Part shown: positions 4,557-38,638 of the stretch, piece after piece
Position numbering within the stretch: position 1 is the first letter of the stretch
How the letters are laid out: each line of letters begins with the position of its first letter
Assembly: GCA_026390435.1 (NCBI GenBank)
Contig: JAPLFY010000040.1
Span: 104,223-168,222 of the forward strand
Direction of reading: 5' to 3'
Origin: Pseudomonadota bacterium
Lineage (GTDB): Bacteria > Bdellovibrionota_B > Oligoflexia > Oligoflexales > CAIYRB01
DNA: 64,000 bases
Notes under the pieces: generated by a model
Told to the model about the DNA's origin: nothing
The model's input: the letters and a program-made list of their open reading frames with translations, nothing else
Database searches by the model: none
Made by a program: the position numbers and the translations under genes

Positions 4557-6288
4557 CGCTAAGCTGACCCTGCTCGCATTTGCATGGTGGATAGCTGGTT
4601 CGGTGGTAGCTCTCGCCGCTAGCGAAGCTAGACTGCCCATTATCCAAAATGTCGGCGTCATACCCGTGCAGTGGGAAGGCTCTGCGAGCGCGCTCCCAAA
4701 CAAAGACACCCTCGAGCAAGGGTTTCCTACGGCCGTGCGTTCGACCCACAGGTTTCGCGTGTTAGGCGACGAATTGGTCGCCGGCTTGTGGCAGACAGAG
4801 CGGGGCCGCAGCGACCTGCGCGACCAGTACGAAGCTCAGGCACTCATGGGGTTAACGGTTAACCAAAGAGACGGCGTGCTCACCCTGACTGCGCGACTCA
4901 TGGACCCCGCTTTGAAGACCGAACTTCTCGAGACGGAAACGATCACGACCGGCTGGCTCACCGATGCGAGCCCTCAGCAGATCACAGATAAGCTCGAAAG
5001 TTTGACCTACAGGATTATCAACAGACTCCCTGTCGATGTCGCTGTGACCTCTATACAGGGTCAGTTTCTCACCCTGTCTGGTGGGACAGAGCAAAACATT
5101 GCCATTGGCGACCATGTTGACGTAGTGCGCAGCAACATAAAAAGCCTACACCCCGCCAACGGCACCTGGTTAGAGTTCCAGACCAAACCACTCGGGACTG
5201 CCCAAATTGTCGATGCCAAAAGCACCACGTCCGTCGCCCGCATCACCAAACAGACCTATGACAATGCCATCGAAGTCAGTGACGGAGCCCGAATAAGCGC
5301 CATTGCCTCGCGCGTAAAATTTGCCCGGTTAGCTGCCAATTCTGGACTCAAAGATGCCGGTAGACAAGACACCGTGATAGTTTCGCCGCTGTATGTTTCA
5401 GGCTCAGCACCGATCGCAAGATCAACCGGCAATAAACTTGCGGAAGAAAATGAGGCTGCACCTGCTCCGGATCAAATTGATGTGGCTAATGCTGACTACT
5501 CAAACACAGAATCAAAACCTTCTGCATTACCGAACGCAGCAGTAAAACCAAATGAAAATCAAGTTAACATCGATGAATCCTCACCCAATCTTTGGGACGA
5601 TATAAGCAAAGAAGCAGGTGGCCATCGACTCATTGACTATGCCAGCCTCTCCGCCGGGCCAATACTCTGGCGAGTTAGTGGCGTCGGAATAGCTGGAGCA
5701 GCGAGCAAATTCCCCATGCTACTTATGAATAATATTGGAGCCAACATAAGTAGAACTTTAATCTTCAAAATCAAAAACGACTTTGGGGCGAAATTATTAG
5801 CCGGTAGCACTGCCAAAGGTCGCTTTTCCGGCTACGAGGGTAGTACGAGAATCTATTGGGAAGAGGATCTACCCGTAGTGATTGGAGGCATCGTCAAAGG
5901 CTGGCGCGGCGGTGGCGTCGGCCACATTAAAGGCCTCTCCGTGACAGGTGAATCCTTCGGCGGTGGTGACTGGGTTTCTGGCGGTGGCTTTATCGGACTC
6001 CTTGGAACCTTGCCCGCAAGCTTACTAGGCGACCGTTATGATTGGTCCGCAGAGTTCGCACTGATACCTTTGACGATTGGCAGAGTGGGCATTGCTGGTA
6101 AGTGGCAGCAGATACAATCTGCATTTGGCTACCATGCGACTCTAGATGCAACGCAGTATCGCCCACCGCAGATGCTAGCTTGGGGGGCAGGTATTGATAT
6201 AGGTAACGAAGAGCAGAGCCTGCGCAACGATTTGCGCGCTAAGTTCCGCGTCTATGATATTCATGTGCTAGCAAAATATCGCTTTTAG
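4522..6288 (+). CDS. Secreted, probably outer-membrane protein of unknown function
   Basis: This 588-residue protein is not recognised by name. Residues 1-33 form a signal peptide ending in VVALAA. Residues about 170-270 contain INRLPVDVAVTSIQGQFL and NIAIGDHVDVVR, resembling the C-terminal fold of FlgT-type envelope proteins. A linker rich in Ala, Asn and Pro follows. The last ~220 residues alternate polar and hydrophobic residues and end HVLAKYRF, a terminal aromatic typical of outer-membrane beta-barrels. The start lies 35 bp inside spoVR with AGAAGGAT upstream, so translation is probably coupled to the PrkA operon. A similar GDxxDL module occurs in the lipoprotein at 25486-28503. Confidence 0.75.
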   Translation: MTVRTTRLRKSDAKLTLLAFAWWIAGSVVALAASEARLPIIQNVGVIPVQWEGSASALPNKDTLEQGFPTAVRSTHRFRVLGDELVAGLWQTERGRSDLRDQYEAQALMGLTVNQRDGVLTLTARLMDPALKTELLETETITTGWLTDASPQQITDKLESLTYRIINRLPVDVAVTSIQGQFLTLSGGTEQNIAIGDHVDVVRSNIKSLHPANGTWLEFQTKPLGTAQIVDAKSTTSVARITKQTYDNAIEVSDGARISAIASRVKFARLAANSGLKDAGRQDTVIVSPLYVSGSAPIARSTGNKLAEENEAAPAPDQIDVANADYSNTESKPSALPNAAVKPNENQVNIDESSPNLWDDISKEAGGHRLIDYASLSAGPILWRVSGVGIAGAASKFPMLLMNNIGANISRTLIFKIKNDFGAKLLAGSTAKGRFSGYEGSTRIYWEEDLPVVIGGIVKGWRGGGVGHIKGLSVTGESFGGGDWVSGGGFIGLLGTLPASLLGDRYDWSAEFALIPLTIGRVGIAGKWQQIQSAFGYHATLDATQYRPPQMLAWGAGIDIGNEEQSLRNDLRAKFRVYDIHVLAKYRF

Positions 6289-16973: not shown

Positions 16974-17999
16974 ATGTGGCGCCGGCTGAGACAGGGATCG
17001 TCACAGCTCTTGCAGCGTTTGCGCTGGGTTTTGCACCCGATCACCATTTTTGTGTCGCTACAAGTTGTGTGGCTAGCGATCACTCTAATTTGGGTGATTT
17101 GGTTTGTCAGCGAGCGAGCTGAGATCGGAGCTCTAGCAAAACGCTTTGGTCAGGAGTATTTCAGCACAGAAATGACTGTGGCAATCCTTGTCGTGGGCTG
17201 CATCCTGCTCGGAGTCCTATTAGTTGGTACCATCATTCTTTTCGTGACTGGACAACGCCAGAGCTCTGCTGCGCGCCAGCAACGAAATTTCGTCTCAAGT
17301 GTCACCCACGAATTGAAATCCCCCCTAGCAAGTCTGCAGCTAGCTTTTGAAACCATGACAAGTCATGAGTTAGACGGACCGACAAAGCAGCGCATTGCAG
17401 ACATCATAGACAGCGACATCGAGCGCCTACGACGCTTGATCGATCAAATATTGGTCGCTGGCCGCCTTGACCGCGGTATTTTGAGTTTTGATGATGCATC
17501 GTCCATAGTGCCGATGGAAGATTTGATAAGACGCATCACGGACAAGCTGTCCTATATGGACCCAAATCTAAATGCGAGATTAACTATCGACTGCCCGCCA
17601 GGATTGGCACTTAGAGCCTCACGCATGGCACTCAACTTAATTCTAAACAACTTAATTGAGAATGCTATTAAGTACTCCCCTAGGCAGTCGCCTATTAAAA
17701 TTGGCTTTGATCAAATTAGATCTGAAGTATTCATGTACGTAAGAGATCAAGGTATTGGCCTGGATAAAAAAGACAAAAAGCGTCTTTTTAAACTCTTTCG
17801 CCGTGGCGAAGCCGCAGTCAAAAAAGCGATACCCGGCACTGGACTTGGGCTCTATATCGTCAAATCTGCTGTTGGCGTCCTAGGTGGCCGAGTCTGGGCT
17901 GAAAGCGCGGGGAGTGGCCAGGGAAGCACTTTCTACGTCTCACTACCCACTAATGAAGAGCTGCGCCAAATTAAGCTCGACCAAGTGGAGCACGTATGA
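16974..17999 (+). CDS. Sensor histidine kinase
   Basis: This 341-residue kinase has two predicted membrane helices (about residues 22-45 and 64-92) enclosing only some 20 residues, so it has almost no periplasmic sensor. HisKA follows with the phospho-acceptor His112 in SSVTHELKSPLAS, then a HATPase domain with N-box LIENAIKYS, DQGIGL and GTGLGLYI. The stop overlaps the regulator start by four bases, so the pair is co-translated. The signal may be sensed in the membrane or relayed by another protein. The SDR stop lies three bases upstream. Confidence 0.93.
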   Translation: MWRRLRQGSSQLLQRLRWVLHPITIFVSLQVVWLAITLIWVIWFVSERAEIGALAKRFGQEYFSTEMTVAILVVGCILLGVLLVGTIILFVTGQRQSSAARQQRNFVSSVTHELKSPLASLQLAFETMTSHELDGPTKQRIADIIDSDIERLRRLIDQILVAGRLDRGILSFDDASSIVPMEDLIRRITDKLSYMDPNLNARLTIDCPPGLALRASRMALNLILNNLIENAIKYSPRQSPIKIGFDQIRSEVFMYVRDQGIGLDKKDKKRLFKLFRRGEAAVKKAIPGTGLGLYIVKSAVGVLGGRVWAESAGSGQGSTFYVSLPTNEELRQIKLDQVEHV

Positions 18000-18712
18000 C
18001 TACTCCCAAAAAGCGCATCCTGTTGGTGGAAGACGAACCCAACCTAGCATTCAATCTGCAGTTCAATCTTCAGGTTGAGGGTTATGAAGTAGTACCAGCA
18101 GTAGATGGGCGGATCGCTGTAGCTAAATTCCTCGAGGACGGTCCATTTGATTTAGTCATACTCGATGTCATGCTTCCCGAAATGAATGGATTTGAAGTTG
18201 CAGAAAAGATTCGCCAATCCGACGACCAGACACACATCCTTATGTTAACTGCTCTTGGCAAAGAAGAAGATCGCCTACGCGGCTTTGAAGCCGGAGCTGA
18301 CGACTACATTACCAAGCCCTTCCACCTTAAAGAATTTTTGCTCCGCGTTAGGCGAATGGTCAAACGCTCGGAGTATTTCCAATCAACTCCTCCTGAATCT
18401 GCCGACAGCCACGAACTTGTTTTCGGACCTTTTCGGCTCGACACGGAGTTGCTGCAACTACATGGTCCAACCGGTCACCATACATTGACTGCGTTGGAGG
18501 CCGATGTGTTGCGGGAGTTTATGAAAAATCCTAAACGCGTGCTCTCTCGCCAATACTTACTTGATACCGTTTGGGGCATGAAAGGCGACATCGAAACTAG
18601 AACTGTCGACAATTTCATAGTACGCCTGCGACGCTATCTTGAACCTGAACCGAGCAAACCACGCTACCTCGTCAGTGTGCGTGGACGTGGATATCGTCTT
18701 ATCGTTGAATAA
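17996..18712 (+). CDS. OmpR/PhoB-family response regulator
   Basis: This 238-residue protein has a receiver domain with the acidic pair EDE, phospho-acceptor Asp57 (VILDVMLPEMNG), switch Thr (MLTALG) and Lys (YITKPF), then a winged-helix DNA-binding domain (LTALEADVL ... TVDNFIVRLRRYLE ... VRGRGYRL). It is the cognate partner of the preceding kinase (ATGA overlap). The regulon is not evident from the window. Confidence 0.95.
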   Translation: MTTPKKRILLVEDEPNLAFNLQFNLQVEGYEVVPAVDGRIAVAKFLEDGPFDLVILDVMLPEMNGFEVAEKIRQSDDQTHILMLTALGKEEDRLRGFEAGADDYITKPFHLKEFLLRVRRMVKRSEYFQSTPPESADSHELVFGPFRLDTELLQLHGPTGHHTLTALEADVLREFMKNPKRVLSRQYLLDTVWGMKGDIETRTVDNFIVRLRRYLEPEPSKPRYLVSVRGRGYRLIVE

Positions 18713-20380: not shown

Positions 20381-20444
20381 ACATGTTTACATTTTGAAAT
20401 AACATTCTTAGATGATTTTCACCTCGAATTTGAGGGTTTTAAAC

Positions 20445-20816
20445 ATGGACATCAGAGCATTAGCTGGAAAAATACAATTTTTTTCCGCAAGCGCGACATG
20501 GGCTGCATCCGTATTTGCCTGTCTTTTAAACGCTTCGACCGTCACCGCCGAGCCAGCTCCACCTTATGAGCAAGTGCACCGCATCCTGACTGCTGCCTGC
20601 GGCAAATGCCACATGAATGGCCATCATCGCGGGGGCATTCAACTCAATACCGAACTACAGTTAGAGAGAGATGCAGAGGTTATCCTCACATCGATCGAAA
20701 CCAGTGACATGCCGTATATGGACCCCACTTGGAATCAGACAGCCCAAGGCAAACTAGTGATACGCTACCTAAAAGCCAAACTCGGCCAAACCGACGACGA
20801 CAATAACCTAGAGTGA
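20445..20816 (+). CDS. Small exported c-type cytochrome-like protein
   Basis: This 123-residue protein has a signal sequence (hydrophobic segment about residues 12-33, cleavage near VTAEPAPP) and a single haem c motif CGKCH followed by HHRGGIQL, reminiscent of planctomycete-type cytochrome c domains. MPYMDP may give an axial Met. The ATG at 20445 has GAGGG eight bases upstream, whereas the in-frame ATG at 20412 has none. It ends convergently with, and overlapping, the CysQ-like gene. An electron-transfer role is assumed from the motif; no oxidoreductase lies nearby. Confidence 0.72.
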   Translation: MDIRALAGKIQFFSASATWAASVFACLLNASTVTAEPAPPYEQVHRILTAACGKCHMNGHHRGGIQLNTELQLERDAEVILTSIETSDMPYMDPTWNQTAQGKLVIRYLKAKLGQTDDDNNLE

Positions 20817-21629
20817 TAGTTTTTTTAAAAACTCGCTCCAGGGAAAATTAGCATCGCCGAAAGCCACAAAGGGCGGATTGATCAAAGTCCCTGTCCGGTA
20901 CCTGAGTGGCTCTCCCTTAAAATCAAGCATTTTGCCACCAGCTGTCTCCAAAACACACTGCGCGGCTGCAGTATCCCAAAGGCTGGTTGGTGAATTACGT
21001 ACAGACACATCGGCGGCACCGGCCGCAATCTCCACATACTTTAATGCACTACCCACCCGCTTAACTCTTGCATGGGGATAGCCCGCCAATAATCTTTGGT
21101 CCTCCCCATGTAGGTGAGAACGGCTGACTAAACATGTAAAATGCTGTTGATCCGCTACTCTACTGCGAATAGGTAGCAGCTGTGAGGCCGGTGCATTTTG
21201 CATAAATGCACCTTCATTCCGCTCGGCGACGTAGCAAACGCCACTTGTAGGAGCGAGGACACAGCCTATAGCAGGCTGGCCGTCTATCATCAGAGCAATG
21301 TTGACACTGAAATCGCCAGTCCGAGACAAAAAGTCTCTGGTCCCGTCGAGCGGATCAATAAGCCAAAAGCAGCTCTCGTCCTGCACTAGTCGGATGCTTG
21401 TCGCCGCGTCAACACCACCTTCCTCTGACACTATCGGCACACCAGGCAATAATCGTGGTAATTCCGCTGCCAATAGCTCATGAGCTGCTAAATCGGCCTG
21501 AGTCACTGGAGACTCGTCTCTCTTGGCTTCTGCCCGCAGTTCTTCATTTTTATACCAGTGCATCACTCGTGCACCGGCCATCCGAGCTACGCCCACCAAA
21601 GCCGGCAGAGATACTAAACTTTGACTCAT
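20808..21629 (-). CDS. cysQ: CysQ-like 3'(2'),5'-bisphosphate nucleotidase (inositol monophosphatase family)
   Basis: This 273-residue phosphatase has the metal sites SEEGG, WLIDPLDGTRDFL and SLWDTAAAQCVLE of the IMPase/CysQ superfamily. CLVSRSHLHG and GSALKYVEIAAG match CysQ, which recycles PAP from sulphate assimilation. It is the last gene of the minus-strand series that begins at 30543, 27 bp after the REC-PilZ gene, although its housekeeping role seems unrelated. An inositol phosphatase role is the alternative. Confidence 0.87.
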   Translation of the reverse strand: MSQSLVSLPALVGVARMAGARVMHWYKNEELRAEAKRDESPVTQADLAAHELLAAELPRLLPGVPIVSEEGGVDAATSIRLVQDESCFWLIDPLDGTRDFLSRTGDFSVNIALMIDGQPAIGCVLAPTSGVCYVAERNEGAFMQNAPASQLLPIRSRVADQQHFTCLVSRSHLHGEDQRLLAGYPHARVKRVGSALKYVEIAAGAADVSVRNSPTSLWDTAAAQCVLETAGGKMLDFKGEPLRYRTGTLINPPFVAFGDANFPWSEFLKKLSL

Positions 21630-21656
21630 ATCGAAGACCTATCGCATTTTACGGAA

Positions 21657-22511
21657 CTAGCCACGCCTCATGTTTTGAACGTTCGCTAAAGAGGTTATCA
21701 GCTTAGTAAGAGCCTGACTCTTTTCCTCTGTAGTATGTTCAAAACTAATGCCAGCCTCGCTACCCACCATAAAGATACGGCGCACACGGGCCGAGAGTTT
21801 CAAGTATTCGCCGTCAGCCAGTGGTGCCGATTTACCGATTGGAATACGCACTCTTAGCTGCTCACCGGGTTGAAAAATGCGGCCGTCCTCGTCGCGCAAG
21901 TAGGCGCCATGAACACTCAAATCAAAGACACGTCCCTTGAGAGTTTGCTCGTCACCAAGCAATGAATACCTGAGGGGGATATTGACTTTATAGCGCCTAC
22001 TGCGCCGCCGATTGCTTGATGTGATGGCATAGCGAACTCGGCTCAAAATTTCGGCATTGGATAGGGAGGCGAATTCCACATAGTCATCTGTTTCATGGAA
22101 CGGCGCCAACACTTGATTATAGGCCTCGATTAATCGAGTTGGATCCCTAGTTAAAAACAACACGGGTACGGCGTCTTCGTTTAATCGGCGTTTCATTTCG
22201 CTAACTAAATTCAAACCGTCCATCAAAGGCAGAAACTCGTCATCAAATACAAGTAATGAAATTTGCCGACTAAAACCTTTTTTTAAATCCTCAGGAGACC
22301 CTGCCCTGGAGACACCAAGCTGTTTAAAGTTAGTTCGAATTAGCTGTTCTAGTCCGTTGGCGACATCGGTCGGCACACCCCTGCCTAATGCAAAGAAAAC
22401 ATAGCTCTTACGCTTTCGCCTCGGTGCCTGAAGCAATTCGGCAACGCGATTCTTAGCTTCCTTTTTATCGTCTACCTTGGGCGTAGCTTCATCAAGTTCA
22501 GTTTGAGTCAT
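21657..22511 (-). CDS. Receiver-like plus PilZ domain protein
   Basis: This 284-residue protein has an N-terminal receiver-like domain (about 40-160) with SLLVFDDEFLPLMDGLNLV in place of the phospho-acceptor strand and VLFLTRD at the switch. A PilZ domain follows (about 175-275) with RRSRRYK and FDLSVHGAYL, the arginine and D/N-x-S-x-x-G motifs that bind cyclic di-GMP. The ATG at 22511 has GGAG upstream and lies 14 bp inside the preceding gene, so the two are coupled. It probably links the envelope operon to c-di-GMP signalling; phosphorylation is uncertain because the acidic cluster is incomplete. Confidence 0.82.
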   Translation of the reverse strand: MTQTELDEATPKVDDKKEAKNRVAELLQAPRRKRKSYVFFALGRGVPTDVANGLEQLIRTNFKQLGVSRAGSPEDLKKGFSRQISLLVFDDEFLPLMDGLNLVSEMKRRLNEDAVPVLFLTRDPTRLIEAYNQVLAPFHETDDYVEFASLSNAEILSRVRYAITSSNRRRSRRYKVNIPLRYSLLGDEQTLKGRVFDLSVHGAYLRDEDGRIFQPGEQLRVRIPIGKSAPLADGEYLKLSARVRRIFMVGSEAGISFEHTTEEKSQALTKLITSLANVQNMRRG

Positions 22512-24108
22512 GGTTATTCTCCATGCGCCAACCGAGGATATATTTAAAAAAGGCGAACGGCTCGACGCGCACCCCAGAAAGCCGCTGATTATGAGCAGCG
22601 TGATGCTGAAGAGTCCAAAGATAAGTGTAGGGTGCATCTTCAGCTAAAATTGCATGAATCTTATGATAGATCGCGCGTTTCATATCGAAATCGTTACTCA
22701 CATCAGCCTCGGTGAGTAGACTATCGACCTCTGTATTCCTATACTGGACGAAATTGTTACCCCAGGGCTTGCCACTCGAACTATGAAACAAACTTGTGAT
22801 GTTGCTCGCATCGTCGAAAGACCAGGCCGCAATAGTCACGTCATAATCATGCTCAGCAAGCACCTTTTTCTTCCAAACCAACCAATCCATGAACTGCAAT
22901 TCAACTTTAATACCGACAGCCTCTAGGTATCCTTGAAAGGCCAGAACCACGCGCTTAATCATCTCGCTCTCACCAGCCAAAGGAACGGCGAAGCTAAGTG
23001 TCACTGGCTGACCGGTAGGCGAGACTAGCCTGCCATCTTTGTACCTAAGTCCAGCAGCAGTCAGTAAGGACTTCGCTCTTTCTGGGTCGTAACTAAGCGG
23101 CTTAACATCGAGATTGTAGGCCCAGGAAGACGGCGGAAATGGACCCGAAATCAATCGTCCCTTACCCTGAAAAAAAGCATCGATCATCTCCTGCCGATTG
23201 ATCGCCTGACTAATCGCCTGCCTAACTCTTTTGTCTCTCAGTACTCCGCGAGCGTTATTCATCGCGAAGAAAGAGAAGGAGAGAGCATCGTAAGGGACAA
23301 CATTAAGCTTGCTATCGCCCATCATCTCGCCAAGATCGCGGGGACTAACATATGTGACCAAGTCTAACGACTTAAACATGAGAGACTGAGCCATCACGTT
23401 TTGATCCGAATAAGCCTTCATCACAATATGTGGTATCTGCGGGTTACCGCGGAAGTATTTTGAATTAGCTGTAAGCAGTACCTCCCCATGACCGCTCACC
23501 TTAACGACGGAATACGGGCCTGTGCCGACGGGATGTTTGGCAAACTCGCTACTGCGAAGCAAGGCTGGCGCAGAACCTAAAATGTGAGATGGCAAAATTT
23601 TGAACATCAATGTCCGCATGGGATCCGTCAGAGCTCTGCCAAAGCGAATAACGACAGAGTGCTCGCCCGTTTTCTCTGCAGACTTAATTACATTAAAACG
23701 CTCACGATTTGGCACTTCACTTGCTGAATTCGACAGTAACCGAATCGTTGTGACCACATCATTCGCGTTAAACTTAACGGTACCCCCCTGACGCTGAGGG
23801 CCATCATGCCAGATCACATCATCTCGGAGATTTAAGGTTACGGTCGTTCCTCCATCACCAATAACCCAACTTTTGGCAAGGGACGGGACATATGCTTCTC
23901 CTGGACCCATTTCAATTAGCGAGTCAAAGATCAGGTCGCTCAACCTTTGGCCGGCAGCCTCTGGGGACGTGAAAGGATCAAGGGTATCCAGACGGGTAGT
24001 CTCGCCATAGGTCATGGCAGCGTTGCCACCAGTAGCAGCTACTGCCAGTCCGATGTTTAGAAAATTTGCTAACACTGCCACTAAGGGCGCTACTAAATTA
24101 AACTGCAT
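22498..24108 (-). CDS. Extracellular solute-binding protein, family 5
   Basis: This 536-residue periplasmic binding protein of the DppA/OppA class has a signal peptide ending LAVAATGG. Family hallmarks are LDPFTSPEAAGQRLSDLIFD, the KSWVIGDGGTTVTLNLRDDV segment and GTGPYSVVK. Such proteins deliver peptides or nickel to ABC importers, but no permease or ATPase gene is nearby. No lipobox is seen. It sits between a beta-propeller lipoprotein and a c-di-GMP receptor in one transcript, suggesting a specialised sensing or scavenging role. Confidence 0.88.
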   Translation of the reverse strand: MQFNLVAPLVAVLANFLNIGLAVAATGGNAAMTYGETTRLDTLDPFTSPEAAGQRLSDLIFDSLIEMGPGEAYVPSLAKSWVIGDGGTTVTLNLRDDVIWHDGPQRQGGTVKFNANDVVTTIRLLSNSASEVPNRERFNVIKSAEKTGEHSVVIRFGRALTDPMRTLMFKILPSHILGSAPALLRSSEFAKHPVGTGPYSVVKVSGHGEVLLTANSKYFRGNPQIPHIVMKAYSDQNVMAQSLMFKSLDLVTYVSPRDLGEMMGDSKLNVVPYDALSFSFFAMNNARGVLRDKRVRQAISQAINRQEMIDAFFQGKGRLISGPFPPSSWAYNLDVKPLSYDPERAKSLLTAAGLRYKDGRLVSPTGQPVTLSFAVPLAGESEMIKRVVLAFQGYLEAVGIKVELQFMDWLVWKKKVLAEHDYDVTIAAWSFDDASNITSLFHSSSGKPWGNNFVQYRNTEVDSLLTEADVSNDFDMKRAIYHKIHAILAEDAPYTYLWTLQHHAAHNQRLSGVRVEPFAFFKYILGWRMENNHDSN

Positions 24109-24123
24109 AAATTACTCCACCGA

Positions 24124-25464
24124 TTACATCGATAAATAATGAATTTTTGAAGGCAAATGAGACTCTGTCTGGATTTGGACACCTTGATTGGTCAACGCCA
24201 CAAAGACGCGGTCCCAGGCACCGATCTGAGCTCTAAAGCTGAGAATTCCAAGCTTAGACACCAAGAGATCGCGATTCATCTTCGTATTGGTACTAAAAAG
24301 ATAGCTGCGACCAGAAAAGAGATCGTAGGCATAAATTGGATTAGATACTGAAACGTCGTGCTTAACATAAAAAATCTTTCGACTATCAGGCGACCAAGCG
24401 GGACCAGTATTTAAATCGATCACTACATCCCGCGCCACGAGCATCGAGCGAAGCTCTACCAAGCTATAGGTCTTTCCGGAGGCAACGGGAACTACAACTA
24501 GATTCCATCGCCTTTGCACGGATTCGCTCTGAGCAATATCTTCAGCGTAGAAGGCGACGTACTCCCCGTCAGGTGAGACCGTTGGGCGTAGATGGTCCGC
24601 ACCAGCTTCAGTCAACGGATAAGGATCACGCCAGATATCATTGTGCCTAGTTACCATATTTAAGCTGTGATGAAGAGCATCACCTGAAGAATAAACGACT
24701 CCATTCCCACCTGGAAACCAGTCCGGAAAAATATCCACTTCATCACTACGAGTCAGCCTGACCAGCTTCTTGTCGCTCAGGCTCAAGGAGTAAATGTCAC
24801 CGTTACCGGACCTGGCGCTAACGAATGCTATTTCATTGTTCACTGGGCTCCAAGTTGCATAACCATCTTTACTATGACTATTACCCAGCGATTCTTCCTT
24901 AGCTCCGATCGCACCGACATAGATATTGTAGTCACCGATTCCACCATTCGACATGAAGGCAAATCTAGTAGAGTCATGGGACCAACGCAGCCCCGCATTA
25001 TAAGACTGCGCAGACTTAGTAACCATCCCATCCAGAAAATCGCTAGAGCCTCTCGGGATTACCTGCAATTCTCTCGAATAATTACCAACTAAGTCCTTCA
25101 ACATGATCTTACGAAACCCGTCGACTAAGACCTCGTATCCAAGATAAACGCCATCAGCTGACCAACTAAGGTTTGCCTCATTAAACCGCGTCTCATTGGC
25201 ATTGAGTTGGCGCACTTCGATCAAAACAACATCACTACGCGCAGATTCTAGCGTTGGATAAGCCTTCGCGAAGGCGCGTGCACCGGGAAAAAACTGGCTG
25301 ATAAAACGCGGAAAATAGTGCCTATTACTAGCAGAAAATGCTGCCAGCGGCACCCCAACTTCCGGACTGGAAACCCCCTTAGACCATGGGCTCAACCGAC
25401 AACTAGCCAAGAGCGCCAAAGTCGCTGGTATTAAGATGCGTCGCCAGGAAGTTTGTGGGCCCAT
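24124..25464 (-). CDS. TolB-like beta-propeller lipoprotein
   Basis: This 446-residue protein has a lipoprotein signal (lipobox LLASC, Cys22) and a series of WD40-like PD40 repeats: NLSWSADGVYLGY, GLRWSHDSTRFAF, YATWSPVNNEIAF, FPDWFPGGNGVVY, RPTVSPDGEYVAF and GPAWSPDSRKIFY. This is the propeller type seen in TolB. It should lie at the periplasmic face of a membrane and bind proteins. It is 16 bp upstream of the solute-binding protein gene and 21 bp downstream of the PEGA lipoprotein gene. No Tol-Pal genes occur here, so it is not TolB itself. Confidence 0.85.
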   Translation of the reverse strand: MGPQTSWRRILIPATLALLASCRLSPWSKGVSSPEVGVPLAAFSASNRHYFPRFISQFFPGARAFAKAYPTLESARSDVVLIEVRQLNANETRFNEANLSWSADGVYLGYEVLVDGFRKIMLKDLVGNYSRELQVIPRGSSDFLDGMVTKSAQSYNAGLRWSHDSTRFAFMSNGGIGDYNIYVGAIGAKEESLGNSHSKDGYATWSPVNNEIAFVSARSGNGDIYSLSLSDKKLVRLTRSDEVDIFPDWFPGGNGVVYSSGDALHHSLNMVTRHNDIWRDPYPLTEAGADHLRPTVSPDGEYVAFYAEDIAQSESVQRRWNLVVVPVASGKTYSLVELRSMLVARDVVIDLNTGPAWSPDSRKIFYVKHDVSVSNPIYAYDLFSGRSYLFSTNTKMNRDLLVSKLGILSFRAQIGAWDRVFVALTNQGVQIQTESHLPSKIHYLSM

Positions 25465-25485
25465 AAATTAAGAAACCAATCTGTT

Positions 25486-28400
25486 TTACTGACGAGACAC
25501 CGACCGCGAAGAATTTAGCGAAGCTGACGCCTGCTTAAGATAGACCTCAGCATTTCCGATATAAGATTTGCTGTTGTCATCCAATGGAATCGCTCGCGCG
25601 CTACCTTCGAGATAATTACGCCAGCCACGCACCGTCTCTACGAGCAACTTCGGATCCTGCGTGGTCATCCAAAGTCGATGACGGCAAAGTGCTCGATGGT
25701 AGTCGACATTGTGAACTGCGTGAGGGTAATCCTTAGCCGCGACGAAACGTAAATAAGGCATCACTCGCTCGAGAACCTCCGACGCCTTCTGATAATGAGC
25801 CCGGGCTGCCTCCGCATTATCAGTCGCCAAACGTTCTGCTGTCGCGAATAACGCAATACCCTCGTTGATATGAGATGCCACAAATCGCTTGTCAGTAAAC
25901 TGTTGCACAGCCTCATTAGCGGTCACTGCACTAAAAGCGGCAGCAGCGTTGGCTGGTTGATCTAAGACATTTAAATAGATCTCACCAGCTTCATGACGAC
26001 CAAAAAGATAATCACTGTGATCCTTAGAAATCTCATTCAATAACGCTAGAGCCTCGGTAGGCTTGCCAGCCTTTAGTAGATTTTGGGCAGCAGCTCTAAA
26101 GTCCCGTTCGAGTGTAATTGCCTCCTCACCCACTAAAGCCAGAGTGCCTTGGTCAAGCTCTAGCACCGAGCTATAGGCCTTATATCCAGGCACACCTTCT
26201 AATTCTATTTTTACGAAACCACTTTGCACGGACACGGGCGTGGAAAGCGGGGTCTTACCAATCACCAATCCATCTAACTTGACCACAGCACTGCTTGGCT
26301 TGGATTCCAGCCTAAGGTAGGCGAGTTGTCTTTTTAGTTGAATATTGTGCTGAATTTGGTCGTTTAAGCTGATGCTCTGAGTGTAGTCAGCATAGCCCAT
26401 TTTGATGATTTTAAGTGTCCCAGACCCCTTAGCTGTGAGTGGAAGACGTCCCGTAGAATCCGTCGCTCCCAACCAGATGTCATTGAAATATACGTTTGCT
26501 TGCGCAACAGGTTGTAAGGTCAACCCTCTCGCCGATGTGATACGCAGCTCACCAGATTTGGAGTCTTCGACCTTGCGTGTCCTAAGCCTAACTAAATCAC
26601 CACGCTCTATAATAGCTCTTGGGGCTAAGCCACTGACGCTACAGGTGGCTGTTTCATCGCCGACCACTCGTACCGTCAATACCCCAATTTTGCCGTGCAG
26701 CTGACTATGACCTAGCTTCTCTGTCTGAAGGCCAAACAGATCCAACTGATCCCCGACTTTGACGCCTCTACCCTGAGATCTGCCAAGATTAATGACGACC
26801 TTATCGGCCTCTTTTTTCAGTACAGCGCCCTCAAAGGGAAAGACGCGATCGATTCTTTTTCCTACCGAACCCACAGCCCGATCTAAAGCGTTTAGGTCAT
26901 CTAAGCTAAGGAGGTTCTCTTTGCCGGCAGCCATAACGTGACCGTAACTATCTATCACACTCAACTCTAGGACGGGAGTCGATCCCAGGACAATGGTTGG
27001 AACGATGACAGCATCGACCATCGCTTTCAAATCGGTATTACGCCAACCATGACGCGCCACATCCTTCAGACCCTTGCCCGAGCGCTGCAACTTCTGCTCA
27101 AATTCCTCGAAAGACACCTCTTTGAAAGCCATCGAGCTAAAAAGCATCTTCCGTGCCGAAGACTGCACTACTTTGGTAAAATCATCATTAATCTTGGCGA
27201 GTGCCTCAGCACTTATAGATCCACTTGCGGTTGGTTTTAACACTGTCAAGCGCGCTGGCGGTGGCTCTAACGGGGCAAAGTATTTCACCAGTGTCATTTG
27301 CTGAGAAGCTACAAAGTCAGTTTCGAAGGTCTCCGGCAAAAATGACTGCGGCTTCAAGCTCACTGCAATTAGATCATCGTTCTTGCCACTATAAGCATGC
27401 GAATAACGTCCAAATTTATCAGTCACACCGACCTTCTTGCCGCCGAAATAAACCTCAACATCTTCGAGTCCATAAACATGTCCGTAGGACTCAGTCACTG
27501 CATAGATGTCGAGAGTATGTCCCTGCTCCAGCTGAACTCTAAGCTTGTCCTTATTCTTGATAAGTACAGTCGTTACATTTGTTTTGTAGCCTTTCTTGGA
27601 GGTCACAAATGTAACGGGAGTCTGTGGCTTTGTCGGAAACCGCACCACACATCGTCCCCGTTGATTGGTGGTGCAGACTGTCTTCAGCTGACTGGACTCT
27701 TCGTCACCGATGGCAAGCTGCACGTCTGCTACCGGCATAGCTCCCGAGATGACATGCACTGTAAAGATAAAAAGCCCTTGATTTGCTGCGGATGCCTGAG
27801 GATAGACTGAGCTATCCGGAATCTGTGATTCCGCCTCAGATTCAGAGTCTTTCTCTGCTACAACAGTCGACTTATCTTTTGGCTGTTCCGCAGTCGCCTG
27901 ATCTAGTGGCACTGTTTTTTGTGCCACATTCAAGTTATCGGCATTATTAGGCTGCGGATTCCCTTGCGCCTCGTTAGTCAATGATGCGGTATCCGCACTT
28001 ACTTTAGCCACAGTCTCCTGGGCCGTGCCGGTTGTTGCGGCAGAGTTGGCGTCACTAGCAGTATTTTTCGAATGATCCGGAGAATTGTCGGGAGAACTCA
28101 GCGATGCATTAGCCGGGGGTCCAGCTAGCACCTTGGCGCTAGTTGGAGACGGCTTCGGAACGAAATAGAGAATCGCAGCTACCGCGACATCTTGCGGCGT
28201 CACTGAACTCACTTCAAAACTCTGCACATAAGGCGCAAAATAATAGGTGTCACTGTCCTTGCGGAGCTCGACCCTGGATTTAGCCGATACCGGTAGTTTT
28301 ATCTCTCCACTGAAAGAACCATTATTAGCTGTCTCACCGAGAATTTTACCGTCGACGATAACGGCAGCAGCGCTGACAGGTTCACCCTGATTCGTTCTCG

Positions 28401-28503
28401 CGTCTACATGAAATCGCACCGTAGTTTCCTTGGGCGTACATGCAAACAAAAATTGTAGGGTCACAGCCACCAGAAGATTAAATTTCACAGCCATCCTCCA
28501 CAC
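25486..28503 (-). CDS. Large multi-domain lipoprotein with PEGA and carboxypeptidase-regulatory-like domains
   Basis: This 1005-residue lipoprotein has a lipobox (FLFAC). In order: an Ig-like module (30-110), an Asn/Ala/Pro-rich linker (115-235), two further regulatory-like beta modules (TTNQRGRCVVRF; VTDKFGRYSHAY), a region near 430-640 with VKVGDQLDLFG resembling FlgT-type domains, another module (ATDSTGRLPL), a PEGA domain (LESKPSSAVVKLDGLVIGKT, about 735-800) and a helical repeat C-terminus (820-1000) like TPR. PEGA and these modules are typical of surface and envelope scaffolds. The GTG at 28503 is tentative; an ATG at 28494 has GGAGG directly against it, which is too close. Function unknown. 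Confidence 0.78.
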   Translation of the reverse strand: MWRMAVKFNLLVAVTLQFLFACTPKETTVRFHVDARTNQGEPVSAAAVIVDGKILGETANNGSFSGEIKLPVSAKSRVELRKDSDTYYFAPYVQSFEVSSVTPQDVAVAAILYFVPKPSPTSAKVLAGPPANASLSSPDNSPDHSKNTASDANSAATTGTAQETVAKVSADTASLTNEAQGNPQPNNADNLNVAQKTVPLDQATAEQPKDKSTVVAEKDSESEAESQIPDSSVYPQASAANQGLFIFTVHVISGAMPVADVQLAIGDEESSQLKTVCTTNQRGRCVVRFPTKPQTPVTFVTSKKGYKTNVTTVLIKNKDKLRVQLEQGHTLDIYAVTESYGHVYGLEDVEVYFGGKKVGVTDKFGRYSHAYSGKNDDLIAVSLKPQSFLPETFETDFVASQQMTLVKYFAPLEPPPARLTVLKPTASGSISAEALAKINDDFTKVVQSSARKMLFSSMAFKEVSFEEFEQKLQRSGKGLKDVARHGWRNTDLKAMVDAVIVPTIVLGSTPVLELSVIDSYGHVMAAGKENLLSLDDLNALDRAVGSVGKRIDRVFPFEGAVLKKEADKVVINLGRSQGRGVKVGDQLDLFGLQTEKLGHSQLHGKIGVLTVRVVGDETATCSVSGLAPRAIIERGDLVRLRTRKVEDSKSGELRITSARGLTLQPVAQANVYFNDIWLGATDSTGRLPLTAKGSGTLKIIKMGYADYTQSISLNDQIQHNIQLKRQLAYLRLESKPSSAVVKLDGLVIGKTPLSTPVSVQSGFVKIELEGVPGYKAYSSVLELDQGTLALVGEEAITLERDFRAAAQNLLKAGKPTEALALLNEISKDHSDYLFGRHEAGEIYLNVLDQPANAAAAFSAVTANEAVQQFTDKRFVASHINEGIALFATAERLATDNAEAARAHYQKASEVLERVMPYLRFVAAKDYPHAVHNVDYHRALCRHRLWMTTQDPKLLVETVRGWRNYLEGSARAIPLDDNSKSYIGNAEVYLKQASASLNSSRSVSRQ

Positions 28504-28559
28504 CCACTTCTAACTGGTCAAGGTCACGGAATTCACTGAATCGATTCACGATAGTTCAA

Positions 28560-28976
28560 TTACATGCTCGGGGGCGCCAAATTGGCTGATCCTGATCCAC
28601 GACTATCTTGCTGGCCATTTGGGAGCTGCGTAGCTCGTAACGAGGTCGGCGGTAAAGGACGCAGCTTTAATTCGACTCGATTTTTACTGTCTATATTGAC
28701 ATGGATTGAGGCTAGAGAATATCCGGGCACCAATGCCTCGATGAGACAATCTCCAGGCGGCAACTTCGCGTCCGTAGAAAACTTACCATCAGGCTGAACT
28801 TTAAGAACTAGAGTTTGATTTGAAGCACTGTCTTTAGGCATCACTGGCTCAATCAGGGGCGTTATATTTACCCGAGCGTCAGGACCAAACGGCTGTCCAC
28901 TTGAACCTTGCAGCTGTCCAGACAAAGTGGGAGCGCAGCTGGTACTCAACCATATAAAAAAAGTAGTCCAACGCAT
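28560..28976 (-). CDS. Small putative lipoprotein
   Basis: This 138-residue secreted protein has the N-terminus MRWTTFFIWLSTSCAP, an imperfect lipobox, then one carboxypeptidase-regulatory-like beta module (VQPDGKFSTDAKLPPGDCLI ... VNIDSKNRVELKL) and a disordered tail. The ATG at 28976 shares its A with the preceding gene's TGA, and AAAGGAT lies upstream. Its single module resembles those in the 1005-residue lipoprotein next to it, so the two may associate. Not recognised further. Confidence 0.65.
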   Translation of the reverse strand: MRWTTFFIWLSTSCAPTLSGQLQGSSGQPFGPDARVNITPLIEPVMPKDSASNQTLVLKVQPDGKFSTDAKLPPGDCLIEALVPGYSLASIHVNIDSKNRVELKLRPLPPTSLRATQLPNGQQDSRGSGSANLAPPSM

Positions 28977-29599
28977 CAAAGAACATCCTTTCGTGACAAC
29001 CACATGACTGAGTTTGTTTCAGGTAACCAAACTAAAGCGCCGTTACCATTAAGCCTTAACTGACGAAACATTGCTCCGCGTGGGATCATGACATGCCATT
29101 GCTTGGAGCTCGGAAAGTCCCAGACTAAATTGGTGTCGTGGACAACTTGAATCGTTGGCAGTCTCTGCAGCGAAAGACTAAATGGTTGCACATTTAACCT
29201 GGGGCGCGACAGCGCCTGACGATGTACCCATCCACTCGCCCCCGAAATCACGGGCAGGATCTTCAGCCACACGCCATGCTGGGCTAATACTATCGCGTCT
29301 GCACCCCGATCTAAAGTAGCGTCCAGTAGTTCATATTGAGTGCCAGGGCCTACGCGCATCTCTGCATGCGGCCTGACCACCTGACTGATGAGCAACATTT
29401 GGGGTGGGACTTCGGCTTTAGCCACCGGCTCAGCTGACAGCTTTGATGAGAAGCTTGTTGGCAATAGGGTCAAAGACTTTAAATGCGTCGGTGATTCAGA
29501 AGACATAGCATCACTCGACGACGAGATCTTACCCAGGCAGCCAACCAATGCGGCGCAGCCGACAAGCGACCATAACATATGCCAGCGCCACGAAATCAT
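28976..29599 (-). CDS. SH3b-domain lipoprotein
   Basis: This is about 207 residues. A strong lipobox LVGC follows a hydrophobic signal. Residues about 75-135 form a bacterial SH3 domain (HAEMRVGPGTQYELLD ... GVWLKI ... SGWVHRQAL), usually peptidoglycan- or protein-binding. The C-terminal 70 residues are unassigned. The ATG at 29599 is chosen because it gives a clean lipoprotein signal; an upstream frame to 29650 overlaps the preceding gene. It is likely anchored in the periplasm as part of the same assembly as its neighbours. Confidence 0.75.
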   Translation of the reverse strand: MISWRWHMLWSLVGCAALVGCLGKISSSSDAMSSESPTHLKSLTLLPTSFSSKLSAEPVAKAEVPPQMLLISQVVRPHAEMRVGPGTQYELLDATLDRGADAIVLAQHGVWLKILPVISGASGWVHRQALSRPRLNVQPFSLSLQRLPTIQVVHDTNLVWDFPSSKQWHVMIPRGAMFRQLRLNGNGALVWLPETNSVMWLSRKDVL

Positions 29600-29604
29600 G
29601 TTGC

Positions 29605-30543
29605 TTAACCCGATTTTGACGTCCCACCGGACTGGGCATTCTTCTCCCAACCATGCTTGCCGATTCGGAGCTGAACTGGCAGATCATAGGCTGAAATTGG
29701 ATTACCCTTAGTACCGATTACGGCAATATGAAGCTTAGTAAAAGTGCCCAATATATTAGCCCGAATAGGGAACTTAAATCCCTTTTGCTTGAAGCGTTTG
29801 ATGGCGAAAGAAGTGGCCTTTAACGGCAACTTTGGGATACCGGCTTCAGACACCGCGATATCTCGTGGCGCCCCGATAAACTGGCGCTCTCCCTGATCTG
29901 TCGTAAATTCGGCAATAGCAAATATGAAGCCTTCAGCAAGATCTACCCCAGAGCGAGTCGTCAAGTCGAAGCGCAACTCGAGTGAGGTTGGATGAGTTAA
30001 AAGCACGGGACGGCTGATGGAAACAGCCGCATCCTCAGTTGAATCTGGAATGTCATTTGATTTAGTTTTTGCCGCACCCGCATCAGCAATCGAGGCGGAG
30101 CCTGCCGAATTACTGGCTGCGATACTCTCCTGATTGGGTTCGGGCTTGGACTCGAATTGAGCTGCGGGCGGCGGCGGCAAGCTTGGCTCAGCAGGGCGAG
30201 CAGTAACGGGCTTGACCTCGACTTGCGCAACAGGCGGTCGGGATGCTTTAGGCTGTGGATAAGCCAAATCAAATACATTATCAACTCGGGTTTCATAGTC
30301 AAAAACTGTATTCAAGGCGACGTGGAGTCTGCTGAGTAAGTTTGCTCTATCCGTCAGCAACGAGGCTACCAATGCAATACTAGCGATGGACCAGACTATC
30401 AGTCCAACACAGAAAGCGATCATGACTCGAAGCTGCCCCAGAGACACAGTGATTGTATGAGTACGCGAGGCGTCAATAAAATAAATGAGATTAAGTTGGC
30501 GCTTACGCCCCGCATTTGACGGCGCTGAATCGAGCTTGGTCAT
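29605..30543 (-). CDS. Single-pass membrane protein of unknown function
   Basis: This 312-residue protein has a cytoplasmic N-terminus (~38 residues, basic), one membrane helix (RVMIAFCVGLIVWSIASIAL), a linker rich in Pro, Ala and Lys (100-190) and a periplasmic beta-rich C-terminal domain starting LTHPTSLELRFDL. It is first in the minus-strand envelope run and probably anchors it to the inner membrane. It shares a 225-bp divergent promoter region with the GT9 gene. Family not recognised. Confidence 0.65.
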   Translation of the reverse strand: MTKLDSAPSNAGRKRQLNLIYFIDASRTHTITVSLGQLRVMIAFCVGLIVWSIASIALVASLLTDRANLLSRLHVALNTVFDYETRVDNVFDLAYPQPKASRPPVAQVEVKPVTARPAEPSLPPPPAAQFESKPEPNQESIAASNSAGSASIADAGAAKTKSNDIPDSTEDAAVSISRPVLLTHPTSLELRFDLTTRSGVDLAEGFIFAIAEFTTDQGERQFIGAPRDIAVSEAGIPKLPLKATSFAIKRFKQKGFKFPIRANILGTFTKLHIAVIGTKGNPISAYDLPVQLRIGKHGWEKNAQSGGTSKSG

Positions 30544-35737: not shown

Positions 35738-38638
35738 GGGCATGTCGTAATCGGCACTACCTCCCCTGGCTCTAAACTTCAGGTGAACGGAAACGCAGCA
35801 ATTGGGTATTCAACCTCAACCGCTGGCCCTACTAATGGACTAGCCGTAAGTGGCAATGTCGGCATCGGCACCACGGCACCCGGTCAGATGTTGGAAGTGG
35901 CTGGCACTATTCGCTCGACTAGTGGTGGGATTATGTTCCCTGACGGCACCGTCATGACCACTGCCTCGGGCGGCACATCAAGTGGCACGACCAGCGTCAC
36001 CGATCTCGCATTTGCATCAGGCACAGGCACCAGCAGTTCGGGTGTTATTACCTTAGCAACACACAATCTCGAACGTATGAGAGTCGATTACAACGGCAAC
36101 GTCGGCATTGGCGCAGCAGCGCCAGTCAATAAACTAGACGTTGCTGGTGGAGTAGCTATCGGTGCCACTTATGCAGGTGGTACTACTGCACCGAGTAACG
36201 GGCTTATAGTGCAGGGGAACGTTGGTATTGGGACAATTTTACCGGTAGCGCTGCTCGATGTTGTAGGTTCAATCAACATCGCCCAATCAAGCGCAATACG
36301 TTCGAACAGCAATTGGCTTATCGGACAGCAGAGTGGGACCAACCTAATCTCTTTGGGGTCGGCTTTCGTAGCAAATGATATTCGCTTCGACTCATCAATT
36401 GGCACGATGGTTACCATTAAAAACACCGGGAATGTTGGCATTGGCACTTCAGCTCCTGCGGCCTTACTAGACGTAAGCGGCGCAAAATCGGCAGCACCTA
36501 CCTTACTGGGAGCATACATTGGTCTTGCCGGCCCTATATTTACAGACAACTCCACGGCTGCATCTGCTACAGCTGCAAACATGGCGTTTAACGCGATCGC
36601 TGCTCCAACTTTGGCATCGACCAACACGTCGGTCACTACATCAAACGCTTATACAAGCTACATTGCTGGCGCTCCGAAGAAAGGCACAAACAACACTGTG
36701 ACCAACGCTGTCGCACTCGGCATCGGTGCTGCCGCCGTCGGCGCTCAGGCCAACAGTTACGGTCTACTTGTTAATGCGCAAACAGGTGCTAACAATAATT
36801 ATACCGCCATCTTTAACGGCGGCAACGTCGGCATAGGCTCCACTGCGCCAGCGCAACGACTGGACGTTGCTGGTGCAATTCGCTCAAGCTCAGGTGGCTT
36901 CGTATTCCCTGATGGCACAATCATGACTACTGCTGTGACTGCTACAACTGCTGGTGCGACAAGTACCACTGATCTTAATTTAGTCGCAGACTCCGAAGCG
37001 GTAGGTGCTGGTGCAATCGTCGTTGCAACTAGTGGTACAGAACGGATGCGAGTGCTCAACTCAGGTAGAGTCGGCATCGGTACCTCTATCCCTCAGTCGG
37101 CACTAGACGTATCGGGTGGGATGTCCCTTGGTAGCTATGCGGGCGTAAATGCTGCGCCTAGTAATGGGCTGATTGTCAGCGGGAATGTTGGGATAGGCAC
37201 AACGGCGCCGGGCAGTCTACTCGAGGTCCAGGGCACCGCCGCCACTGCGACTAGTGATACCTTGGTAAGATTTCGTAACAACTTGACGACGACCACGGTA
37301 GCGCCCGCCTATACCTTGGCGTTAAGCCGTCAAAATTCTGCAACCGCCGCCATGTACCTGGGGAACGATGGCTATAACAGTGCGCTGATCGCTGCTAACA
37401 ATACCAATCTGCGCATCGGCAAAGATGTTAGCGGGACGTTTACGGAGTATGTTCGCGTCGACACTGCCGGCAACGTCGGCATTGGGACTACTAGCCCGCT
37501 AAAAACCTTGGAAGTCTCAGGCAACGACACCAACACGACAGTGGGCGGCGCCACTAAGGCTGCGCTTGCGATTATCAACACCAATAATTCAGCATTTAAT
37601 CAGCCCGCCGAACTTCAATTCTACGCGGGTGGGACGAATTTACCGAAGTATCTTTTGGGTGGGGTTTCAACACTATACTCGTCGTGGAATACTACGACCG
37701 GCGCTGGCGGTGATCTAGCATTTTTCACCAAAGACTCGCTTTCGGTCACGCCGGCGGAGCGGATGAGGATTTCCAGCGTGGGCAACGTCGGGATTGGTAC
37801 AACAACGCCGTTAGCCCTGCTCGACGTAAGCGGTGCTAAATCTGCGACCCCAAGCCTCACGGGCGCATACATAGGCTTCGCTGGGCCGACGTTCACCGAC
37901 AACAACACAGCTGCATCGGGCACTGCTGCTAACATGGCATTCAATGCTATCGCCGCACCAACCCTAGCCTCTGCCAACGCTACAGTAACGACAACCAATG
38001 CCTATTCATTGTATCTCGCAGGCGCCCCGAAAAAAGGCACCAACGACACCATCACCAACGCAGTGGCACTTGGCATCGGTGCCGCAGCGGTCGGAGCGCA
38101 AACCAATAGCTATGGTCTTTTCGTTAACGCTCAAACTGGCGCGACCAATAACTACGCTGCCGTATTTCAGGGTGGCAACGTCGGCATCGGCACCACCTCC
38201 CCCACCCAACGCCTTCAAGTCGGCACCAGCGGCGACGGCACGGTAGCATTAGCAAACGCTTGGAATACCTTCTCCGATATTCGACTGAAACGTGACCTCG
38301 CAGTCATTCCCGATGCGCTTGATAAACTGCTTGAGCTTCATGGTTACTATTACTTCTGGAAAGACGGATCAGACCAAACTCGTCAGGTTGGGGTAGTGGC
38401 TCAAGAAGTAGAAAAAATACTACCCGAGCTAGTGCGCACCGGCAGCGACGGAATCAAAACTGTCGATTATCCGAAACTAACAGCAGTGCTGATCGAAGGC
38501 ACAAAGCAGCTCAAGGCTGAAAAAGACAGCGAGATAGCACAACTCAAGGCTCGTGCTGATGCGGCTGAGGCAGAGACTGCGCTACTTAAACGAGCGCTTT
38601 GCAGTAAGTTCCGAGACTTGGCGGTCTGCTCGTACTAA
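35738..38638 (+). CDS. Fibre-like protein with C-terminal S74 chaperone domain (copy A, 5'-truncated)
   Basis: The frame is open from 35738, just after a TGA, and codes at once for a fibre repeat (VIGTTSPGSKLQV); no ATG start, ribosome site or signal peptide is seen, and the first possible start is a GTG at 35783 (951 residues). Many NVGIGTTAP-type repeats with FPDGTVMTTA segments give a trimeric beta-fibre, and two ~135-residue blocks are duplicated. The last ~145 residues form the peptidase S74 / endosialidase chaperone domain with the self-cleavage motif SDIRLKRDL and a terminal coiled coil (EKDSEIAQLKARADAAEAE). Such domains trimerise fibres and then cleave off. Probably a truncated or silent surface-fibre gene. 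Confidence 0.85.
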   Translation, partial: GHVVIGTTSPGSKLQVNGNAAIGYSTSTAGPTNGLAVSGNVGIGTTAPGQMLEVAGTIRSTSGGIMFPDGTVMTTASGGTSSGTTSVTDLAFASGTGTSSSGVITLATHNLERMRVDYNGNVGIGAAAPVNKLDVAGGVAIGATYAGGTTAPSNGLIVQGNVGIGTILPVALLDVVGSINIAQSSAIRSNSNWLIGQQSGTNLISLGSAFVANDIRFDSSIGTMVTIKNTGNVGIGTSAPAALLDVSGAKSAAPTLLGAYIGLAGPIFTDNSTAASATAANMAFNAIAAPTLASTNTSVTTSNAYTSYIAGAPKKGTNNTVTNAVALGIGAAAVGAQANSYGLLVNAQTGANNNYTAIFNGGNVGIGSTAPAQRLDVAGAIRSSSGGFVFPDGTIMTTAVTATTAGATSTTDLNLVADSEAVGAGAIVVATSGTERMRVLNSGRVGIGTSIPQSALDVSGGMSLGSYAGVNAAPSNGLIVSGNVGIGTTAPGSLLEVQGTAATATSDTLVRFRNNLTTTTVAPAYTLALSRQNSATAAMYLGNDGYNSALIAANNTNLRIGKDVSGTFTEYVRVDTAGNVGIGTTSPLKTLEVSGNDTNTTVGGATKAALAIINTNNSAFNQPAELQFYAGGTNLPKYLLGGVSTLYSSWNTTTGAGGDLAFFTKDSLSVTPAERMRISSVGNVGIGTTTPLALLDVSGAKSATPSLTGAYIGFAGPTFTDNNTAASGTAANMAFNAIAAPTLASANATVTTTNAYSLYLAGAPKKGTNDTITNAVALGIGAAAVGAQTNSYGLFVNAQTGATNNYAAVFQGGNVGIGTTSPTQRLQVGTSGDGTVALANAWNTFSDIRLKRDLAVIPDALDKLLELHGYYYFWKDGSDQTRQVGVVAQEVEKILPELVRTGSDGIKTVDYPKLTAVLIEGTKQLKAEKDSEIAQLKARADAAEAETALLKRALCSKFRDLAVCSY
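36455..38220 (+). repeat. Duplicated ~400-bp block within the fibre gene
   Basis: The block from about 36455-36866 recurs at about 37805-38218. Both encode LLDVSGAKSA, then AANMAFNAIAAPTLAS, AGAPKKGTN and AVALGIGAAAVGAQ. The two are similar but clearly diverged, so the duplication is older than the S74 copies. Confidence 0.8.

Follow-up and report, generated by a model that had tools for sequence, protein, structure and literature searches.

A conserved, closely packed cluster of envelope genes ending in a PilZ protein in the order Oligoflexales

Introduction

Do the closely packed envelope genes on one strand of a bacterial contig form a system, and what would such a system do? The window considered here, i.e., the whole stretch of DNA analyzed, comprises 64,000 nucleotides (contig JAPLFY010000040.1, positions 104,223 to 168,222, assembly GCA_026390435.1) from a bacterium of the order Oligoflexales. 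On its minus strand seven intact, tightly packed reading frames, termed A to G, occupy positions 21657-30543, and a cysQ gene (H) extends the run to 20808. An initial annotation had described closely packed envelope genes that matched no known system and could form an envelope-spanning machine for adhesion, motility or predation under cyclic di-GMP control. All genes listed there were found to be intact reading frames with Pfam in agreement, an envelope-spanning arrangement is predicted from sequence, and no such system was described in the searches made. The titles and abstracts of the literature retrieved for Oligoflexia with PilZ, PEGA lipoprotein with PilZ, FlgT with TolB and pseudo-receiver with PilZ did not describe the cluster. 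The gene cluster is real, conserved and, as far as literature searches reached, undescribed; its parts come from known families, and their combination cannot be filed under a known system.

Gene Order Is Conserved Across the Order

A search for D covered 144 relatives, and gene neighborhoods were read at 33 loci. The order comprised 43 genomes in eleven families, and a strong match was one with E < 1e-20 for D and E < 1e-80 for G. D was strong in 36 genomes and G in 33, with D present in every genome carrying G. The initial annotation had proposed a neighborhood comparison, in which scattered genes would speak against a common system. The linkage was found to be conserved: the gene order recurs in 8 of the 11 families, and in each of the 33 genomes with a strong G, D lies next to it. 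This conservation is far beyond chance.

The arrangement A-B-C-D-E-F-G was found in family f1 and in f6 (G022), f10 (G021), and f11 (G023), and A-C-D-E-F-G in genus g15 of f8, where the reading frame of C was not called in G026. The shorter A-D-G was found in f2, most of f6, genus g9 of f8 and G015 of f10, and B-D-G in two f11 genomes. Contigs were cut in f5 and f9, where D-E-F-G is visible. Family f7 had D and no G; in one of its genomes A was present in shortened form. The gene set was absent from f3 and f4. The core is A-D-G, while B, C, and E-F are optional.

We tentatively favor the reading that A-D-G is a scaffold that spans the envelope and responds to cyclic di-GMP (c-di-GMP), to which E-F adds an optional peptide module. 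The proteins are considered below with this scaffold and its competitors in mind.

Protein G Combines a PilZ Domain with a Receiver-Like Domain

G (21657..22511, minus strand, 284 amino acids) was taken in the initial annotation for a c-di-GMP receptor that ends the run; as the end of the run it holds for A-G, although the region delimited there also included the eighth gene, cysQ. Its naming as a REC-PilZ protein stood for the PilZ half only. The PilZ domain (21696..22013, minus strand) scored 48.9 bits against a curated cut-off of 22.5 (E 9e-13), and its c-di-GMP motifs, RxxxR and [D/N/E]xSxxG, are intact. Across 26 G sequences Arg173, Ser199, and Gly202 were invariant and Arg169 near-invariant, and the second motif started mostly with D and sometimes with N or E.

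The receiver match reached 17.6 bits and thereby stayed below the Pfam cut-off of 30.2 bits, the domain being degenerate. In the same 26 sequences Asp91 was invariant and Thr121, 30 residues further on, near-invariant, and alignment to a solved receiver placed Asp91 at the phosphoacceptor position. CheY has the same Asp-Thr spacing of 30. Neither an acidic pair after the first strand nor a Lys at the expected place was found in the 26 sequences, and because these are missing the N-terminal half is read as a pseudo-receiver. In the scaffold G would be the cytoplasmic c-di-GMP receptor, whose receiver-like domain, probably unphosphorylated, would serve for docking. A conserved basic PRKKRK-like stretch (22407-22430, minus strand) precedes this domain and is possibly used for membrane contact.

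With its RxxxR and DxSxxG motifs the PilZ domain of G resembles that of YcgR-type receptors, YcgR being a PilZ flagellar brake (PMC10140304). Unlike these, G is tied to D and not to motor genes; its N-terminal half, which is receiver-like, may also differ.

Protein D Has a FlgT-Like Region and, with G, Mostly Co-occurs with flgI

D (25486..28488, minus strand, likely start GTG at 28488) is a 1000-amino-acid lipoprotein with Ig-like (immunoglobulin-like) domains, a FlgT-like middle, PEGA and TPR. The Pfam scan identified PEGA and CarbopepD_reg_2. The designation as a giant PEGA lipoprotein was therefore correct as far as PEGA is concerned, but left a FlgT-like region unnamed. FlgT_C was matched at residues about 567-638 (E 4.7e-4), at 21 bits against a curated cut-off of 27. 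The structural model of D had a mean predicted local distance difference test score (pLDDT) of 81 and a predicted template modeling score (pTM) of 0.49, so that the domain arrangement is not reliable. It places a lipoprotein N-terminal sandwich first, then a disordered linker (residues 115-238), two Ig-like domains and an alpha/beta plus beta region at about residues 411-640, followed by additional sandwiches, PEGA among them, and TPR at the end. Residues 411-640 (26569..27258, minus strand) resemble the middle and C-terminal parts of FlgT, and the PEGA domain with the TPR half lies at 25489..26316 (minus strand).

A Foldseek search with the whole model gave FlgT (3w1e) as the top solved structure (E 6e-10, 326 columns), with low TM-scores over the multidomain model, and the LPHT ring chain (8z5n) as a second structural match. 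In a viral fold search D matched for the most part other multidomain proteins (surface or tail proteins), which gave no insight. FlgT is the H-ring protein of the Vibrio flagellar motor, where it contacts the LP and T rings (PMC6504787). D is like FlgT in its best solved fold match and its weak FlgT_C match, and unlike it in being a large lipoprotein with Ig, PEGA, and TPR parts that is encoded outside flagellar clusters and occurs in f7 without flgI.

Lipobox-like cysteines were found in B, C, D, and E, and in none of the four is the Cys followed by Asp. According to the sorting rule of E. coli, which may not fit this lineage, such lipoproteins go to the outer membrane, and for lack of this Asp an outer-membrane destination is predicted for B to E. 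We infer that D would be a large, probably outer-membrane lipoprotein in the scaffold, whose Ig-like domains and FlgT-like region reach into the periplasm.

Sequence related to D was also seen elsewhere. A 588-amino-acid protein encoded at 4522-6288 of the window (plus strand), behind DUF444 and SpoVR genes, had a weak match to the D profile, in its FlgT-like region, at about 4963-5295, and no Pfam family. In class-mates of family f12 (L055, L059, L062-L064) a D-like lipoprotein of about 620 amino acids without PEGA or TPR adjoins a conserved protein of about 360 amino acids; A, E, F, and G were not found beside the D-like gene there.

Among the genomes of the order G and flgI were both present in 31, G alone in two, flgI alone in two and neither in eight (Fisher p 1.3e-5, with no phylogenetic correction). 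The two G genomes without flgI are 87% and 72% complete; the genomes with flgI and without G are G028, which has no operon, and G039, in which D is cut by the contig end. On a rough tree of bactofilin and neighboring genes, which had weak backbone support and did not contain G025 and G037, the lacking families f3, f4, and f7 were found in separate places. The co-occurrence of the D-G core with flagella in the order favors motility or surface behavior over predation specifically.

This raises the question whether the operon is an accessory to the flagellum itself, with D in an outer ring around the basal body, G as a brake of the YcgR type and A as the inner-membrane contact. The structural match of D to FlgT, the place of FlgT in the Vibrio H-ring, the presence of flgI in all of the 33 G genomes but two incomplete ones, and the YcgR precedent all agree with such a role. 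However, the operon is unlinked to flagellar genes, D is kept in f7 without flgI, the FlgT_C match is below the Pfam cut-off, and FlgT-like domains occur in other proteins too, such as the second one in the window. We therefore regard a flagellar accessory as unlikely, while it is the best surviving competitor of the scaffold.

Protein A Carries a Predicted Hairpin That May Resemble That of LmdC-Type Peptidases

A (29605..30543, minus strand, 312 amino acids) is a predicted inner-membrane anchor with a cytoplasmic beta-hairpin (residues 16-34), a membrane and coiled helix (35-87), a low-complexity linker and a periplasmic beta-sandwich (174-294). No family, M23 peptidase included, was found for A in the Pfam scan, and a fold search with the beta-sandwich returned generic folds such as ApaG that indicated no function. 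Its best conserved part is the cytoplasmic motif directly before the membrane helix, with the consensus LNIIYFVDSAKTxT (30442..30498, minus strand), which the model (mean pLDDT 74, low in the linker) folds as a hairpin. In the scaffold A would be a single-pass inner-membrane protein, with the short hairpin as a cytoplasmic docking site and the sandwich in the periplasm.

A similar cytoplasmic hairpin precedes the membrane helix in LmdC-type M23 peptidases of the same order (profile comparison, P 8e-5). When the hairpin columns were shuffled, the full-profile score, which includes the membrane helix, was reached in 0 of 300 cases and the hairpin-only score in 6 of 300; the match is short. A differs from these peptidases in having a beta-sandwich as its periplasmic part and no M23 domain. 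The LmdC hairpin is required for bactofilin binding (PMC10945521), and the likeness of the A hairpin to this bactofilin-binding hairpin is suggestive only. Bactofilin is near universal in the order, 38 of 43 genomes, or close to that number, having a single strong copy. It was rejected as a marker of the operon, since it occurs also in genomes lacking the operon and does not separate the two groups; it was not found in G024, an A-D-G genome.

B (28976..29599, minus strand) is an optional SH3b lipoprotein with an SH3_4 match above the Pfam cut-off (1.9e-5) and homologues in nine loci. C (28560..28976, minus strand) is a small, likewise optional lipoprotein with a carboxypeptidase-regulatory-like fold.

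These features could fit a scaffold for cell shape or the cell wall, in which the hairpin of A binds bactofilin and positions B-C-D at the wall while G tunes the assembly. The hairpin comparison and its shuffles, the role of the hairpin in LmdC, the wide presence of bactofilin and the SH3b domain of B point this way, whereas the presence of bactofilin without the operon, its absence from G024 and the shortness of a match whose score includes the membrane helix point the other way. We consider this alternative rather improbable.

Homologues of the E-F Pair Precede Opp Transporter Genes in Another Phylum

E (24124..25464, minus strand) is a TolB-like beta-propeller lipoprotein with PD40/DPPIV_N repeats, and F (22498..24108, minus strand) is a family-5 (oligopeptide) solute-binding protein. 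E shares PD40 propeller repeats with TolB of the Tol-Pal system, but is a lipoprotein, is paired with F and is not TolB by the NCBIfam cut-off (75.9 bits against 343). F belongs to SBP_bac_5 (2e-74, 251 bits against a cut-off of 32.4) and is nearest to AppA (9.7e-66), and an invariant Asp of F aligns with the Asp in the WTGD motif of DppA. Every E found in the order is directly followed by F. The mean column identity was 57% for E and 61% for F compared to 25-41% for A, D, and G, the genomes with E-F being fewer and on average closer.

The present genome has four strong SBP_bac_5 genes. The three besides F sit with OppB/OppC-like genes, and F is therefore taken to lack a permease of its own here; in the operon itself, neither permease nor ATPase genes were found. 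Each of the three full Opp-type permease loci examined here has its own binding protein, as do those read in two f8 genomes with E-F, and a search with OppC_N was too insensitive to single out a permease usable by F.

In a different phylum, genome G301 carries homologues of C (5e-14), D (6e-132), and E (7e-89), a TPR protein and F (7e-184), after which come an OppB-type permease and ABC ATPases. G390 has D-E-TPR-F-OppB and G391 D-E-TPR, both clusters lying at contig ends. Profiles of A, B, and G had no match in these clusters. In two genomes of family f141 (L104, L105) one run holds two F-like SBP_bac_5 genes, OppB, OppC, two ABC ATPases, a TPR protein and an E-like propeller; it also holds a protein with a weak PEGA match.

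Since A, B, and G are not matched in the other phylum, the peptide module seems to predate the A-D-G core and to be distinct from it, with D belonging to both. F thus resembles Opp/App/Dpp transporters in its family, its nearest relative and the Opp genes that follow it in another phylum, and the operon differs from them in lacking permease and ATPase genes and in having a PilZ protein and an anchor added. The designation of F as an orphan agrees with the operon studied here; as C-D-E-F homologues in another phylum precede Opp genes, the permease-less state is probably derived. E and F, where present, would form a periplasmic module for peptide sensing or peptide delivery, derived from a cassette with Opp ABC transporter genes as in the other phylum, with the permease probably lost here. 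Docking of E-F on the PEGA-TPR half of D fits the retention of this half, which tracks E-F: it was intact in 15 of 15 D sequences from genomes with E-F, whereas 8 of 15 from genomes without E-F had it much reduced or missing.

C-D-E-F could instead serve plain uptake, carrying peptides, e.g., muropeptides, from the outer membrane to an Opp/Yej permease encoded elsewhere. The Opp genes that follow F in the other phylum and stand beside F-like and E-like genes in f141 agree with this, and so do the nearness of F to AppA/DppA and its aligned Asp. On the other hand, the Opp-type permease loci examined have binding proteins of their own, E-F is missing from many A-D-G genomes, and uptake would leave G unexplained, for which reasons we assign it a low probability. 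An adhesion or predation machine specific to the lineage is very improbable, in that the surface lipoproteins with Ig-like domains and the lineage-wide conservation are outweighed by the lack of a recognized adhesin domain in the Pfam scan of the operon proteins, by C-D-E-F occurring also in another phylum, and by a co-occurrence that follows flagella.

Transcriptional Organization and Neighboring Genes

With likely starts, 5 bases separate the A stop from the B ATG, and the spacings C-D, D-E, E-F, and G-H are 71, 21, 15, and 27 bases. The B stop and C ATG overlap by one base (TGATG at 28976), and the start of G overlaps the end of F by 14 bases. These gaps of 5-71 bases and overlaps suggest that A-G forms a single transcription unit. 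Promoter and terminator scans of the locus gave no signal above shuffles.

H (20808..21629, minus strand) encodes a CysQ-type 3'(2'),5'-bisphosphate nucleotidase (TIGR01331, 4e-67) and is peripheral, being found at this place in family f1 only. The upstream flank is mostly constant, with heptosyltransferase, KDO transferase and RNase G genes running divergently. Downstream are genes for a histidine kinase and its regulator, dapF and an acyltransferase gene, which face the other way in f1 and f8 but follow G immediately on its own strand in f6, for which reason the two-component pair may share a transcript with the operon in f6. In the window the kinase and its OmpR-type regulator (16974..18712, plus strand) are convergent with the operon.

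Two further proteins of the window were noted. A 134-amino-acid protein encoded at 20412-20816 (plus strand), convergent with cysQ, has a CxxCH haem-type motif (CGKCH) and no Pfam match at the default threshold. A 951-amino-acid protein encoded at 35783-38638 (plus strand) has at its end a Peptidase_S74 domain, an intramolecular chaperone of the kind seen in phage tail spikes.

Discussion

In the A-D-G scaffold, binding of c-di-GMP to G would change the state of a bridge between A and D. Its output would most likely be that motility is slowed or repositioned, or that surface behavior is altered; both the effect and the contacts on which it depends we infer. Several observations weigh against this reading. 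Kinship inflates the co-occurrence with flagella, and neither link is strict, f7 retaining D without G or flgI and G028 having flgI without the operon. The neighbors of the operon are lipopolysaccharide, dapF and two-component genes rather than flagellar ones. A and G are missing from the clusters of the other phylum, so that the core and the peptide module would have separate histories. The flagellar, bactofilin and uptake explanations are its main rivals and overlap partly with it.

A more specific version of the scaffold, which we put forward as possible though doubtful, is a novel complex in which a pseudo-receiver PilZ protein controls a FlgT-like outer-membrane lipoprotein via a small anchor. 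Many members would have captured the peptide-binding half of an Opp system, thereby coupling periplasmic peptides to behavior controlled by c-di-GMP.

The bacteria of this order are little studied, and the cluster conserved across it offers a concrete gene set by which c-di-GMP could influence the envelope. It also presents a peptide-binding protein that seems to have been put to a new use after losing its transporter, and the link to flgI makes a role in motility directly testable.

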